Positions 57,184-63,187 of a stretch of DNA of 64,000 nt are shown piece by piece. Source of the DNA: Janthinobacterium sp. LM6 (lineage in GTDB: Bacteria > Pseudomonadota > Gammaproteobacteria > Burkholderiales > Burkholderiaceae_D); contig NZ_CP019510.1 in assembly GCF_002002885.1 (NCBI RefSeq), forward strand, positions 1,426,001 through 1,490,000. Direction: 5' to 3'. How positions within the stretch are numbered: the first letter of the stretch is position 1; every line of letters starts with the position of its first letter. The notes under the pieces are model-generated. The model had not been told where the DNA came from and did not search any database. It saw only the letters and a list, made by a program, of their open reading frames with translations. A program made the translations under genes and the position numbers.

Positions 57184-58644
57184 ATGAATCCATTTGAACC
57201 CAATCTCTCCAGCCTGGCCGTGGCGCGCGATATCCTGTTGACGCCGTTCGGCCTGGACGAAGACAAGCTGTTGAAAGCCCTGGGCACGATGTTTACGCAC
57301 AAGGTCGACTATGCCGACCTGTATTTCCAGTCGACCAAGAGCGAAGGCTGGAGCCTGGAAGAGGGCATCGTCAAGACGGGCAGTTTTTCCATCGACCAGG
57401 GCGTGGGCGTGCGCGCCGTGTCCGGCGACAAGACGGCGTTTGCGTATTCCGACGATATTTCCGAGCGGGCCTTGCTGGAAGCGGCGGCGGCCACGCGCAC
57501 CATCGCGCGCGCCGGTAGCGGCAGAGTCAAGATCGCGGGCCGGATGCTTGCGCAGGGCGGGCGTTCGCTGTACCTGCCCAACGATCCGCTCGCTTCGCTC
57601 GATGCCACGGCCAAGGTGCAGCTGCTCGAACGCGTGGAAAAGATGGCGCGGGCGAAAGATCCCAGGGTGGTGCAAGTGATGGCGGGCCTGGCCGGCGAAT
57701 ATGACGTGGTGCTGGTGCTGCGCAGCGACGGCGTGCTGGCGGCAGACATCCGCCCGCTGGTGCGCGTCTCGCTGACGGTGATCGCGGAACAGAATGGCCG
57801 CCGCGAAACGGGCTCGGCCGGCGGCGGCGGGCGTTTCAGCTATGACTATTTCAGCGATGCCGTGTTGGAACAATACGCAACGGACGCCGTCAATTCGGCC
57901 CTGGTGAACCTGGAAGCGCGCCCGGCGCCCGCCGGCCCCATGACCATCGTGCTGGGACCGGGCTGGCCCGGCATCCTGCTGCACGAGGCGATCGGCCACG
58001 GCCTGGAAGGCGATTTCAACCGCAAGGGCTCGTCCGCGTTTTCCGGGTGCATCGGCGAGCGCGTGGCCGCCAAGGGCGTCACCGTGGTCGATGACGGCAC
58101 CCTGGCAGGCCGCCGCGGCTCCCTGAATATCGATGACGAGGGCAACCCGACGCAGTGCACGACCCTGATCGAAGACGGCATCCTGAAGGGTTACATCCAG
58201 GACACGATGAATGCGCGCCTGATGAAGATGCCCGTGACGGGCAATGCGCGCCGCGAATCGTTCGCCCACCTGCCCATGCCGCGCATGACGAATACATATA
58301 TGCTGGGCGGCGACAAGGACCCGGGCGAAATCCTCGCCTCCGTCAAAAACGGCTTGTATGCCGTCAACTTCGGCGGCGGCCAGGTCGATATCACGAACGG
58401 CAAGTTCGTCTTTTCGGCCAGCGAAGCGTACATGATCGAAAATGGCAAGCTCAGCTACCCGGTGAAGGGGGCGACCCTGATCGGCAACGGCCCGGACGTG
58501 CTCAACCGCGTCTCCATGATCGGCAACGACATGCGCCTTGATTCCGGCGTGGGCGTGTGCGGCAAGGAAGGGCAAAGCGTGCCCGTGGGCGTGGGACAGC
58601 CGACCCTGCGCCTCGATGGCATCACGGTCGGCGGCACGGCCTAG
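57184..58644 (+). CDS. tldD: Metalloprotease TldD
   Basis: 486 residues. The metal site [11 protein letters not shown] (HEXXXH, His267-His272) and [16 protein letters not shown] match E. coli TldD, as do the C-terminal [32 protein letters not shown] and [17 protein letters not shown]. With TldE/PmbA it cleaves small peptides, such as microcin precursors and CcdA, in the cytosol. The TldE partner is not in the window. It is last in the yhdP - nitrilase - tldD run. Confidence 0.96.
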
Positions 58645-58714: not shown

Positions 58715-61561
58715 TCAAAACTTGTACTTCACCCCCGCACTGATGAAGCGTCCCGCCGCGCCCGCGTAGTCGAGCGGGTTGTAGCCCGTGGCGCCATACG
58801 TGAGCGGATCGAGCGGGGCGATCTTGTCGAACAGGTTTTGTATTGTGGCAAACACTTCCAGCTTGGGCGTGGCCAGCCAGCGGGCCGTCAGGTCCACCGT
58901 AGTGAACGAGGCGATGCGGCAGCCGCGCGGCGCGTCCGTGCCGTCGGCGAAGTGCGTGGCGCAGCCGTCCGGGTCATTCTTGAACAGCACATTGTCGAGC
59001 GGCGCGCGGTAGTTGACGTTGGCCGTGACGCGCCAGTTCTGGCGTTCCCAGGTGGCGCCCAGGTTGATGCGGTCGTCCGGCGTGCCCATGCAGTTGGACA
59101 CGTCGCAATTGCCATGCGTGCCGGCAAAATCGCGCTGCGTGCCGTCCTGTTCCGTGCGCAGCCATTTATACAGATGCGTCCACTTCAAGTCGAAAGTCAG
59201 GTTGCCATAGTCGCTGCCCAGGCTGAAGCGCTGGCGCGCGTCGATATCGATGCCGCGCACCGTCGTTTGCGCCGAATTCACATAATTGGCCAGCACGGCC
59301 GTGATGGCGCCCGGATCGCCGGCGATGCCGGTGGCCGTCGACGGGTCGCGCGCCACATGGCCTTCGGCGATGGCCGTGTCCGTTTGCTCCTGGTTGATTT
59401 CATTCTTGCGGCGGATTTGCCACAGATCGACGGAAATGCTGGTGCGCGGCAGCGGGTCCCACACGGCGCCCACGGAATAGCTGCGCGAACGTTCGGGCGA
59501 CAGCTTGGGATTGGGCGAGGTGATGACGGCGATGGAGGCCGGATCGCAGGCCGCTTCCACGCCCAGTGCGCAGCGCAGCGGATCGCTGGCGGTGGAGAAT
59601 GCGGCCAGGCCGCCGACGCCGTTTTCCGCCGCGCTGGGGGCGCGGAAGCCCTTGGCGAAGGTGCCGCGCAGGGCCAGTTCGCGCACGGGCGTCCATTTCA
59701 CGCCCACTTTCGGCGTATAGGAGTTGCCCACGTCGGTGAAATGGTCGGCGCGCAGGGCGCCCGACAGTTCCACGCTCTTCAGCACGGGCGCCAGCATCTC
59801 GGCATAGATGGCCGAGGCGTTGCGGCTGCCCTTGTAGGCGGAATAGCCGAGACCAATGATATTGCCCCGTTCCGTGCCCGTGGTGGGCTTGAGTTCCGTC
59901 GATTCGTGGCGGAATTCTGCGCCCACGGCCACGCCCAGGCCGCCGCCGTCGAGCTTGGCCACCTCGCGGCTGGCCTTGAAGTCGATCTGCGCGATATGCG
60001 TCTTGGCATCGTTCGCGATGCGCGGCGACAGGGCCGCGTACAGCTCGCGCGAATTGAGGCCCGCGTTTTCCGCGATGCGCCACAGGCTGCCGGCCGGCAG
60101 GGCCGCATATGCGGGGTTCAGGCTGGCCCGCTCCACATTGGTGGCGCTCGGGTTGAGCAGGGCGAAGGCGACGTCGCGCTGCAGGTAGCCGTCCAGGTCG
60201 TTCGACACCTTGTTCTGCGAGTACAGCAAGGCGCTGTCGATATCCCAGCCCGCCACGCTGCCCTTGATGCCGGCGACAAAGCGCATGAAGGTGGATTTGA
60301 CTTCCGACAGGCGCGGCCCCACGTCGGCCGCCAGGTAGCGCAGCCGCGCCGCCGTGCCGAAATACGGATTGTCAGGATGGGCGGCGCCCAGCGACACGCC
60401 CGCATTGCTGACGGGGCCGCCCGGATAGCCGACCGAGCCGCTGACCGTCGAGGGCGTGGTGGCCGAGTGCGATTCGCTGTGATACAGATTCAGCTCGGCA
60501 TACGTCTGCAGCTCCGGCGTCAGTTGCCAGGCGCCGCGGCCGAAGAAATTGATGTTCTTTTGCTTGGGCTGGATCTGCCCGTATTGCTGCGCGGCATCGG
60601 TCAGGCAGCCGCCGCCCGGATCGCCCTGCGGGTGAGTCGTGAAGTTGCCGCAGGCGGCGCCGGGGAAGGTGCGCGTAAAGCCCGCGCCGGCGAGGTTGCC
60701 GCGGTTGTAGTAGTCGAGCGTGTCGGGATTGCGCACATTGCCGTTGACGGCGCTGCCGGCCGCATTGTTGGTGGTGATGGCGCCCGCGCCGCTGAGGGTT
60801 TCCTGCGCGCTGAAACCCAGGTCGCGCAAGTCGCTGCGGCCGACGGCGCCCCGACCGGCCCGGTCGCGGTTCCAGATGGCGGCCTTTTCGCTGTACTCGA
60901 GGTTCAGCAGCACGTTGTAGCGGTCCGTGTCGATGTCGCCGAAGCCGTGCGTGATGGCGGCGCGCGCGTCGCGCCCGTCCCACTCTTTCGTCTTGCCGTA
61001 ATTGCCCTTGATGGCCGTGCCCTGGTAGTCGCGCCGCAGGATCACGTTGACGACGCCGGCGATGGCGTCCGAACCATAGATGGCCGAGGCGCCATCCTTG
61101 AGGATTTCCACCCGCTCCACGGCTTCCAGGGGAATGATGTTCAGGTCGGCAAACACTTTCTGCCCGTCGTCGGCCAGGCCATACGGCGCGACGCGGCGGC
61201 CGTTCAGCAGCACCAGGGTCGAGGCCGTGCCCAGGCCCCGCAGCGACACGCCGGAGGCGCCGGCGGCAAAGCCGTTGCCGAAGGTGGTGGGGACGGAACC
61301 CTGGTTGTCGACGGCCAGGGTCTGCAGCAGTTCGGCCACGCTGGACTTGCCCGATTTTTCAATGTCGGCCGCGTTCAGGGTTTGCACGGCCGACGCCGTT
61401 TCCGCCTGCGCGCGGCGGATGTTCGAGCCGGTGATTTCCACGCGCGCAATCGGCGCGGCGTCCTGCGCCAGGACGGGTAGGCTCAGCAGTGCACTGGCCA
61501 GTGCCAGGCCCAGTCTGGGGGGTGAAAAGGCAGCGGAATGCAAGGATGGTGTAGGGATCAT
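58715..61561 (-). CDS. TonB-dependent outer-membrane receptor
   Basis: 948 residues from the ATG complementary to 61559-61561, with CGGAGA upstream; an in-frame start 12 codons earlier is less likely. The signal peptide ends near LPVLAQDA. A TonB-box-like IARVEITGSNIRR is followed by plug motifs TLVLLNGRRVAPYG and VEILKDGASAIYGSDAIAGVVNVILRRD, then the barrel with KGFRAPSAAENG and KLSPERSRSYSVG. The C-terminus is SAGVKYKF. Cys pairs occur in loops (RCALGVEAACDP, NCDVSNCMG). The gene sits between tldD and aroG. The 270 bp upstream of its ATG (61562-61831) show no other feature that I can support. The ligand is unknown. Confidence 0.94.
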   Translation of the reverse strand: MIPTPSLHSAAFSPPRLGLALASALLSLPVLAQDAAPIARVEITGSNIRRAQAETASAVQTLNAADIEKSGKSSVAELLQTLAVDNQGSVPTTFGNGFAAGASGVSLRGLGTASTLVLLNGRRVAPYGLADDGQKVFADLNIIPLEAVERVEILKDGASAIYGSDAIAGVVNVILRRDYQGTAIKGNYGKTKEWDGRDARAAITHGFGDIDTDRYNVLLNLEYSEKAAIWNRDRAGRGAVGRSDLRDLGFSAQETLSGAGAITTNNAAGSAVNGNVRNPDTLDYYNRGNLAGAGFTRTFPGAACGNFTTHPQGDPGGGCLTDAAQQYGQIQPKQKNINFFGRGAWQLTPELQTYAELNLYHSESHSATTPSTVSGSVGYPGGPVSNAGVSLGAAHPDNPYFGTAARLRYLAADVGPRLSEVKSTFMRFVAGIKGSVAGWDIDSALLYSQNKVSNDLDGYLQRDVAFALLNPSATNVERASLNPAYAALPAGSLWRIAENAGLNSRELYAALSPRIANDAKTHIAQIDFKASREVAKLDGGGLGVAVGAEFRHESTELKPTTGTERGNIIGLGYSAYKGSRNASAIYAEMLAPVLKSVELSGALRADHFTDVGNSYTPKVGVKWTPVRELALRGTFAKGFRAPSAAENGVGGLAAFSTASDPLRCALGVEAACDPASIAVITSPNPKLSPERSRSYSVGAVWDPLPRTSISVDLWQIRRKNEINQEQTDTAIAEGHVARDPSTATGIAGDPGAITAVLANYVNSAQTTVRGIDIDARQRFSLGSDYGNLTFDLKWTHLYKWLRTEQDGTQRDFAGTHGNCDVSNCMGTPDDRINLGATWERQNWRVTANVNYRAPLDNVLFKNDPDGCATHFADGTDAPRGCRIASFTTVDLTARWLATPKLEVFATIQNLFDKIAPLDPLTYGATGYNPLDYAGAAGRFISAGVKYKF

Positions 61562-61831
61562 GCGGTTCTCCGGAAAGGTCAGGCAGTCAAGGGTCATCGA
61601 TACGTCCTTGAGTTTTGTCCGTGCGGCGACGCCGGGACTAGACCTGGATCAAGGAGTGCCCCGCTTGTCGTCGATAGAATGGCTGGCGTGGCGTGGTTGC
61701 CACGACGGGCACAGCGGTGGCGCCGGGTGGGCAGAGTCGCAGCGAGATTCACAGCGCGCAACTTTTTATGATTTTTTGCGGGTTATGCAGTGTAAAACGG
61801 CAGCGGCATGCGGCTTTGCCGACAAATATGC

Positions 61832-61861
61832 TTGCCAACCCTTGCAATTTAGGTTTATAGT
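61832..61861 (+). promoter_or_regulatory. Predicted sigma-70 promoter of aroG and its leader
   Basis: TTGCCA at 61832-61837 and TATAGT at 61856-61861 are separated by 18 bp. Transcription would begin near 61868, only about 20 nt before the leader reading frame. Confidence 0.65.
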
Positions 61862-61886
61862 CGTTCATCACTTACGGATGACTCGC

Positions 61887-61955
61887 ATGTTCGCTCGCCA
61901 CTTTTTTACCGCTTATTTTTACTTTAGCAATTCCAACCCAAAGGCGGTGGAGTAG
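61887..61955 (+). CDS. Phe/Tyr-rich leader peptide of aroG (attenuator)
   Basis: A 22-codon frame whose first 13 residues hold five Phe and two Tyr (F2, then FFTAYFYF at residues 6-13). It starts at ATG 61887, eight bases after GGATG; ATG 61878 in the same frame is possible. The stop TAG is at 61953-61955. It resembles enterobacterial pheA leader peptides in composition and placement, not in sequence. Slow translation of the Phe/Tyr codons, when charged tRNAs are scarce, would expose RNA pairing segments and prevent termination at 61999-62026. The product itself probably has no function. Confidence 0.75.
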   Translation: MFARHFFTAYFYFSNSNPKAVE

Positions 61956-62026
61956 CGGTCGGTTCACGTAGCAGCAAAACGAGATCCCAGCAAATTCTAA
62001 AAAACCGCCACCGATGGCGGTTTTTT
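61908..62026 (+). promoter_or_regulatory. Transcription attenuator upstream of aroG
   Basis: Segment 1, ACCGCT (61908-61913), lies inside the Phe/Tyr codon run and pairs with AGCGGT (61954-61959) of segment 2. Segment 2 (GGCGGT at 61943-61948 or GCGGT at 61955-61959) can instead pair with ACCGC(C) of segment 3 (62004-62009). Segment 3 also forms the terminator stem AAAACCGCCA/TGGCGGTTTT (62001-62010 with 62015-62024) followed by nine T. These are the three mutually exclusive pairings of an amino acid attenuator. The alternative stems are short (5-6 bp), so folding needs confirmation. Confidence 0.7.
61999..62026 (+). terminator. Attenuator terminator hairpin before aroG
   Basis: A-rich and CCGCCA arm, CCGA loop, and TGGCGG followed by a run of nine T. 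It lies 44 bp before the aroG ATG and downstream of the aroG promoter, so it can only act as a conditional terminator. Confidence 0.85.
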
Positions 62027-62069
62027 TTTACCCAGATGTTTTACCCTTCCTTAAATTTTGGAGAAAATG

Positions 62070-63134
62070 ATGCCCCGCACCGATGATTTGCGCATTCGCG
62101 AAATGAAGGAACTGACCCCGCCGTCCCACCTGATCCGCGAATTTGCCTGCTCGGAGCAAGCCGAACAGACTGCCGCCAGCGCCCGCATTGCCCTGCACCG
62201 TATCCTGCATGGCCAGGACGACCGCCTGATGGTGGTGATCGGGCCTTGCTCCATCCACGACACCAAGGCGGCGATGGAATATGCGCGCCTGCTGGTCAAG
62301 GAGCGCGCGCGTTTCGCGGGCGAACTGGAAATCGTCATGCGCGTCTACTTCGAGAAGCCGCGCACCACGGTGGGCTGGAAGGGCCTGATCAACGATCCGT
62401 ACATGGACAACAGCTTCCGCATCAACGACGGCTTGCGCATGGCGCGTGAACTGTTGCGCGATATCAATGAACTGGGCTTGCCGGCCGGCACGGAGTTCCT
62501 CGACGTCATCAGCCCGCAATACATCGCCGACCTGATCAGCTGGGGCGCCATCGGCGCGCGCACGACGGAGTCGCAGGTGCACCGCGAGCTGGCGTCTGGA
62601 TTGTCCTGTCCGGTCGGCTTCAAGAATGGCACGGACGGCAATGTGAAAATCGCCGTGGAAGCCATCAAGGCCGCCTCGCAGCCGCACCATTTCCTGTCCG
62701 TCACGAAGGGCGGCCACTCTGCCATCGTCTCGACCAACGGCAACGAGGATTGCCACATCATCTTGCGCGGCGGAAAAACCCCGAACTATGACGCGGCCAG
62801 CGTGGACGAGGCGTGCAAGGCCATCGCCGCGCAAGGCCTGGCGGCGCGCCTGATGATCGACGCCTCGCATGCGAACAGCTCGAAAAAACCGGAAAACCAG
62901 ATTCCCGTGTGCGCCGACATCGCCAGCCAGGTGGCCGGCGGCGACAGCCGCATCGTCGGCGTGATGGTGGAATCGCACCTGGTGGCGGGCCGCCAGGATT
63001 TGATCCCGGGCAAGGAATTGATCTATGGCCAGTCCGTCACGGACGGCTGCATCGACTGGAGCGCCAGCGTGGCCGTGCTGGAAAACCTGGCGGCGGCCGT
63101 CAGGCAGCGCCGCCTGCAGGGCGACGCGGAATAA
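62070..63134 (+). CDS. aroG: 3-deoxy-7-phosphoheptulonate synthase (DAHP synthase, class Ia)
   Basis: 354 residues. ATG 62070 lies six bases after GGAG; ATG 62067 and TTG 62058 are less well placed. Class I motifs: VVIGPCSIHD, YFEKPRTTVGWKGLINDP, PAGTEFLDVISPQYI, KNGTDGN, DASHANSSK and GRQDLIPGKELIYGQSVTDGCIDW. It joins phosphoenolpyruvate and erythrose 4-phosphate, the first step of aromatic amino acid synthesis. Class Ia enzymes are inhibited by Phe, Tyr or Trp; which one cannot be read safely here. Its transcription is probably attenuated by the Phe/Tyr leader upstream. A terminator follows. Confidence 0.97.
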   Translation: MPRTDDLRIREMKELTPPSHLIREFACSEQAEQTAASARIALHRILHGQDDRLMVVIGPCSIHDTKAAMEYARLLVKERARFAGELEIVMRVYFEKPRTTVGWKGLINDPYMDNSFRINDGLRMARELLRDINELGLPAGTEFLDVISPQYIADLISWGAIGARTTESQVHRELASGLSCPVGFKNGTDGNVKIAVEAIKAASQPHHFLSVTKGGHSAIVSTNGNEDCHIILRGGKTPNYDAASVDEACKAIAAQGLAARLMIDASHANSSKKPENQIPVCADIASQVAGGDSRIVGVMVESHLVAGRQDLIPGKELIYGQSVTDGCIDWSASVAVLENLAAAVRQRRLQGDAE

Positions 63135-63152: not shown

Positions 63153-63187
63153 AAAAAGCCCGGAAAGCTAAGCTTTCCGGGCTTTTT
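63153..63187. terminator. Bidirectional intrinsic terminator
   Basis: AAAAAGCCCGGAAAGCT (63153-63169) is mirrored by its complement at 63171-63187, between the convergent aroG and receptor genes. Confidence 0.88.

Follow-up and report, generated by a model that had tools for sequence, protein, structure and literature searches.

A candidate ribosome-mediated attenuator with phenylalanine and tyrosine codons in front of aroG in Janthinobacterium and related betaproteobacteria

Introduction

How is entry into the shikimate pathway controlled in an order whose genomes appear to carry no TyrR domain? The question is raised by aroG of Janthinobacterium sp. LM6, a DAHP synthase gene that lies behind a short open reading frame crowded with Phe and Tyr codons. 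Ribosome-mediated attenuation is a textbook kind of control, and the first-pass annotation of this DNA had read the aroG leader in those terms. The TyrR domain (TIGR04381) was found in 0/61 genomes of kin, with the E. coli control positive. Among the genomes of a regulon survey, in the passages we cite, TrpR and TyrR are likewise absent outside the gammaproteobacteria (PMC5343134). We analyzed a window of 64,000 nucleotides, positions 1426001-1490000 of a 6.29 Mb single-contig genome, together with the loci of aroG homologs.

Layout of the aroG leader

The following features were assigned between the promoter and the end of aroG:

61832-61861, + strand: sigma-70 type promoter, TTGCCA-18-TATAGT, 10/12 matches
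61887-61955, + strand: leader ORF from ATG 61887 to TAG 61955, MFARHFFTAYFYFSNSNPKAVE, 22 codons plus TAG, aromatic codons at 61890-61925
61904-61914, + strand: segment 1, 5' arm of the protector hairpin, within the Phe-Phe-Thr-Ala-Tyr codons, pairing with 61942-61952 in the predicted fold
61943-61948, + strand: segment 2, GGCGGT, common to the protector hairpin and the antiterminator, invariant in 37/37 and 24/24 aligned rows
61954-61959, + strand: AGCGGT across the leader stop, contributing to the 3' side of the protector hairpin
61999-62026, + strand: intrinsic terminator (segments 3 and 4), 12-pair stem, -15.2 kcal/mol, T-run to 62029
62004-62009, + strand: segment 3, ACCGCC, 5' arm of the terminator and antiterminator partner of segment 2
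62060-62063, + strand: ribosome site of aroG, GGAG
62067-63134, + strand: aroG, class I DAHP synthase (3-deoxy-7-phosphoheptulonate synthase), NF006723 583 bits (cutoff 568), TIGR00034 534 bits

The nearest named relatives of this AroG are Janthinobacterium proteins, 96-99% identical. The genome holds a second DAHP synthase (L002), 51% identical to AroG, and no comparable leader was found upstream of it. The basic elements described in the first-pass annotation were all recovered: a sigma-70 promoter that recurs in Oxalobacteraceae loci, a 22-codon frame with five Phe (codons 2, 6, 7, 11 and 13) and two Tyr (codons 10 and 12) in 13 residues, and a GC hairpin with nine T (62021-62029) shortly before aroG. 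The terminator is not that of the upstream gene, because the gene at 58715-61597 lies on the opposite strand.

Transcription would start near 61868. At the highest-scoring promoter-like site of each Oxalobacteraceae locus, TTGCCA is present in 58/68 and TATAGT in 44/68; this site lies 20-39 nt upstream of the leader ATG in 61/68. A promoter score of at least 10 was reached by 54% of 110 loci, as against 1.7% of mononucleotide shuffles.

As to the surroundings, an opposite-strand ORF, which from its look we take to encode a TonB-type receptor, separates aroG from a presumably TldD-like ORF at 57184-58644. Directly behind aroG, at 63153-63187, stands an extended symmetric hairpin (AGCCCGGAAAGCT..AGCTTTCCGGGCT), preceded by A's and followed by T's, which from its sequence could serve as a terminator for both strands.

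Occurrence in the window and in relatives

The window was scanned at 2532 positions (steps of 50, both strands) for an ATG ORF that begins 120-330 nt upstream and has at least 5 F/Y/W in 14 residues, and then a terminator of -10 kcal/mol or lower. An aromatic-rich ORF was present at 49 positions and an ORF with terminator at 4, all of which are the aroG leader site; it is thus the sole such combination in the window. A search for paralogous leaders in the same genome gave seven terminator-pattern matches, two of which are the site itself on both strands; the five others are unlike the aroG leader, with a maximum of 5 F/Y/W in 14 residues in any upstream ORF (L189).

The same rule without the energy cut was applied to homolog loci. 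Leader and terminator precede aroG in 78 of 80 named loci (Oxalobacteraceae and Burkholderia types; the misses are L023 and L076), a set biased to close relatives because it consists of the top-scoring hits to this AroG. Among 71 loci of the same order (29 best-scoring, 42 hand-picked across families), 28 have both elements and 43 do not, L125 and L131 having the ORF only. Among 29 loci of the same class, 4 have both; L103 and L109 have the ORF only, probably by chance. All these counts are by sequence and include close relatives, so they are not independent, and family codes were assigned by hand.

Several individual loci deserve description. In L076 (Candidatus Burkholderia humilis) the leader has a shifted frame that continues past the terminator sequence, with GGCGG and the terminator retained; this is perhaps a leader losing its sensor, and the frame shift may be an assembly error. 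In the Oxalobacteraceae loci L023 and L112, which have the same upstream sequence, a gene that we presume to be TldD-like stands about 36 nt before aroG, and there is neither leader nor terminator. L083, L084, L085 and L087, which fall within the class of the window and outside its order, have related leaders (RFYWYYFPKPLAEEG, RYWFYFFYVF) and an identical terminator core.

Coding signal in the leader frame

The leader frame looks like coding sequence in two alignments of Oxalobacteraceae leaders, both with identical rows merged beforehand: A1, with 37 of 41 group A rows (without L021, L032, L037 and L038), and A2, with 24 of 26 rows (without L052, which is incomplete, and L113). Between pairs of sequences, one-base differences in aromatic codons are synonymous in 443/745 cases (60%) for the 37 sequences and in 354/449 (79%) for the 24, where 11% is expected; of the remaining differences, 167/302 and 61/95 exchange F, Y and W among themselves. 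Differences in the aromatic columns fall mostly at third codon positions, and the mean pairwise differences at codon positions 1-3 are 0.08, 0.14 and 0.25 in one alignment and 0.14, 0.14 and 0.29 in the other.

Gaps before or inside the aromatic run measure three or six bases, and the spacer 3' of the leader stop has indels of many sizes. The first-pass annotation had staked its reading on conservation of the Phe/Tyr frame in relatives, and the frame is indeed kept while the spacer behind it drifts. The last leader codons are shifted by indels in L015 and L061 (A1) and in L027, L033, L040, L043 and L118 (A2), the latter five with a common one-base gap behind GGCGGT. ATG 61887 is present in 37/37 aligned rows, but these rows had been cut around that same ATG; another in-frame ATG, at 61878, is retained by just 3/37 (L001, L003, L004). 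Motifs for a ribosome site upstream of the leader were found in only 45/111 loci. From the coding constraint, we infer that the leader is translated.

In other families the leader peptides differ and have the same aromatic character, for example MSAKFYFYFFWHLRPLADREG in Burkholderia types and FYFYFYGFLKPLAEEG, RFFYYFYFFCTPAEG and FFAFYFWFSVPGGRE elsewhere. The aromatic cluster comprises 5-11 F/Y/W, Trp being included in 41/111 leaders; the leader of the window has no Trp codon.

Complementary segments and terminator

The first-pass annotation paired ACCGCT (61908-61913) with AGCGGT (61954-61959), and the two are exact complements. It further proposed AGCGGT as the partner of the terminator arm. 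Complementarity exists here too, but over 5 pairs only, whereas the conserved partner is GGCGGT at 61943-61948, which forms 6 pairs with ACCGCC; in the aligned Oxalobacteraceae, AGCGGT is a component of the protector hairpin, on its 3' side. As main antiterminator, AGCGGT was therefore replaced by GGCGGT, the segment that other families keep.

A scripted search of 111 of the 116 loci with a leader ORF (without the terminator-less L076, L103, L109, L125 and L131) found GGCGG after the last aromatic codon in 108/111. Of the three exceptions, L147 has GGTGG (a G-U pair), L148 has the shifted complement GCCGGCG:CGCCGGC, and in L085 GGCGG overlaps a Trp codon that the script counted as the last aromatic one. 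The 5' arm of the terminator contains CCGCC in 108/111 loci; L049, L078 and L079 lack it there. In 110/111 loci (without L038), from 12 family groups, GGCGG starts 5-17 nt after the preceding last aromatic codon and 38-72 nt before the terminator. It is read in all three codon registers, mostly as x-A-V/D/E, as G-G in f2 and as R-R in two f165 loci; the constraint is therefore on the RNA.

This last point bears on a different reading, in which free Phe or Tyr would cause the aromatic leader peptide itself to stall the ribosome and so control termination. TnaC, which responds to Trp, is a precedent for peptide arrest; a leader peptide and a terminator are both in place, and ring-rich peptides could conceivably contact the exit tunnel. 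Against this, families share aromatic richness and not fixed positions, Y, F and W interchange, and the GGCGG at the peptide end is kept as RNA in every register. We regard arrest by the nascent peptide as improbable.

About equally improbable is a stand-alone short transcript, acting in trans as a small RNA or small protein, with aroG expressed by readthrough without sensing. Promoter, ORF and terminator would fit a small RNA, and in Sinorhizobium meliloti a trp leader peptide works in trans, according to the part of the source drawn on here (PMC7298713). Such a transcript would, however, leave the complementarity and spacing of GGCGG without a reason, and the aromatic codons precede the first enzyme of the aromatic pathway in 12 family groups.

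For the protector hairpin, with the structure taken from one of the 37 rows, 94.4% of cells are paired, whereas slid versions reach 30-59%; GGCGG is paired upstream in 97/108 folds counted. A G-C/U-A swap in this hairpin (19 and 12 of 37 rows) maps on the aroG tree as one change on the starred branches, two at most, that is, 1-2 independent events. In the terminator, both bases differ at pair 156:181 in 3 rows and at pair 167:174 in 7; the double changes seen are from A-U to U-A in 7 rows, and from A-U to G-C in 3 rows and in 1 other. Because the core of the antiterminator does not vary, it has no covariation support: no clear covariation of segments 2 and 3 was seen in Oxalobacteraceae or across families.

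Flanking pairs of the antiterminator in 11 families (without L007 and L038) score weakly above permutations, 0.13 of which reach the observed value, and so fall short of significance. Suggestive single cases of covariation are ACTGGCGG:CCGCCAGT (L085), CCTGGCGG:CCGCCAGG (L143, L145) and GCCGGCGGT:ACCGCCGGC (L136). Contiguous complementarity exceeds that of dinucleotide shuffles at 0.05 in 33/69 Oxalobacteraceae, 19/21 Burkholderia types and 9/21 others. When arms were swapped between families, pairing became shorter in 7/12 family groups and longer in 5/12.

In L048, L014, L059 and L024 the distance from the end of the terminator to aroG is 18, 20, 23 and 24 nt, respectively, which makes a separate promoter in between unlikely. 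Control at aroG translation through a hidden ribosome site, as in the translational trp attenuator of Shewanella described in the passages we cite (PMC5343134), is more improbable still, since an intrinsic terminator with a T-run stands between leader and gene in 111/116 loci and the conserved complementarity targets the terminator arm.

Folding with a modelled ribosome

Fold energy was considered as proof of attenuation and rejected, the z values being only -1.15 (whole leader) and -1.41. The whole-leader fold is unremarkable by itself, and the evidence for attenuation is the anatomy of the leader and its conservation. The first-pass annotation had also proposed folding the leader of the window with and without masking. 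In full-length folds the terminator formed both without masking and with each of three masks, a result that speaks against the switch.

In a ribosome model, a 30-nt footprint was masked at each codon of a transcript ending at the terminator loop, for 107 of 111 loci (without L007, L038, L147 and L148). With the ribosome masked, the predicted probability (P) of the antiterminator climbs to 0.8 or higher on some aromatic codon in 94/107 loci and is at least 0.5 at most aromatic codons in 83/107; the last aromatic codon reaches 0.5 in 64/107 and stays below it in 43/107. In the absence of a ribosome, P is below 0.5 in 80/107 loci, including 62/67 Oxalobacteraceae, and at least 0.5 in 27/107 (5/67 Oxalobacteraceae, 11/21 Burkholderia types and 11/19 others). 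With the ribosome at the stop, it is at least 0.5 in 21/107. In this model, the loci that favour the antiterminator when ribosome-free or with the ribosome at the stop, or that fall below 0.5 at the last aromatic codon, do not fit a simple scheme at equilibrium. The antiterminator of the window itself has six pairs; in a run that covered 28 of 29 chosen loci (without L078), its P is 0.17-0.56 for five of the seven aromatic codons and 0.02 for the final two, a Tyr and a Phe.

The drop in P past the aromatic run is partly built in, because the footprint then covers GGCGG. What is informative in the masking is that the aromatic run ends about where the footprint reaches GGCGG.

Discussion

Promoter, frame, terminator, complementarity and conservation together support the interpretation given in the first-pass annotation, and we consider it very probable, judging from the sequence, that the aroG leader is a ribosome-mediated transcription attenuator working through its Phe and Tyr codons. 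In the mechanism that we propose, RNA polymerase would start near 61868, with a ribosome following on the leader frame. If charged tRNA-Phe and tRNA-Tyr are ample, the ribosome would reach the stop and cover GGCGGT at 61943-61948, the terminator at 61999-62029 would form and aroG would not be transcribed. Under shortage of an aromatic amino acid, the ribosome would stall in the aromatic run and open the protector hairpin, so that GGCGGT stays free to pair with ACCGCC at 62004-62009 before the second arm of the terminator is made, giving readthrough into aroG. If there is no translation, the protector hairpin would keep GGCGGT and the terminator would again form. Here we infer the co-transcriptional timing as well as the direction and size of the regulation. 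As for the tRNAs that matter, Phe can be named most safely, and Tyr is likely.

A wider reading, which we put forward tentatively as it is rather less probable than its opposite, is that a single attenuator gauges the charging of tRNA-Phe and tRNA-Tyr, joined by tRNA-Trp in leaders of the Burkholderia type (FYFYFFW), the Massilia type (YFWF) and some others, such that any of three end products could switch on the shared first enzyme; the leader would then be an old substitute for TyrR/TrpR in the order. Should this be true, the RNA core GGCGG/CCGCC is fixed and the codon content is tuned by lineage. The attenuator offers a candidate, testable answer to how shikimate pathway entry is controlled in an order in which no TyrR domain was found. 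In addition, the leaders form a natural series, with two or three amino acids possibly sensed, varied codon mixes and one fixed RNA core, that is suited to asking how attenuators weigh their inputs.

The switch is of a known kind. The trp, his, leu and ilv leaders of proteobacteria work on the same principle, with different amino acids and genes. The aroG leader resembles enterobacterial pheL (Rfam RF01859, Phe_leader) in placing a Phe-rich leader peptide before an aromatic pathway gene, and the hairpin layout of pheL follows the same scheme; unlike pheL, it precedes another gene and has Tyr codons mixed in. The RF01859 model scores 21.9 bits on the aroG leader, below its gathering score of 55; Rfam gave no match above threshold in 61500-62300, and NCBIfam has no model for the two leader peptides tried. 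The cited account describes pheL as a leader peptide that senses Phe and precedes a gene of the Phe pathway (PMC11802643).

The place of the switch is one for which we found no earlier report: the open-licence literature, a scope mostly without subscription papers, yielded no attenuator for a betaproteobacterial aroG. The first-pass annotation, which knew of no such attenuator, is correct to this extent, but a DAHP synthase case does exist in Corynebacterium glutamicum, where, in the passages cited, a Phe-Tyr-Phe leader (aroR) precedes aroF (PMC11802643, PMC4046766). There, ribosome stalling under Phe limitation leads to more transcription, while Tyr supply is described as having no effect despite the Tyr codon (PMC11802643), so that Tyr codons alone are no proof of Tyr sensing. 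The two systems are alike in having an aromatic leader peptide before a DAHP synthase gene; they differ in that the actinobacterial leader has three aromatic residues named in those passages, whereas clusters of 5-11 occur here. Finally, the interacting patterns of such attenuators are described as conserved over large evolutionary distances (PMC1262725, citing Vitreschak 2004, in the part drawn on here), which fits the invariant GGCGG/CCGCC of the aroG leaders.
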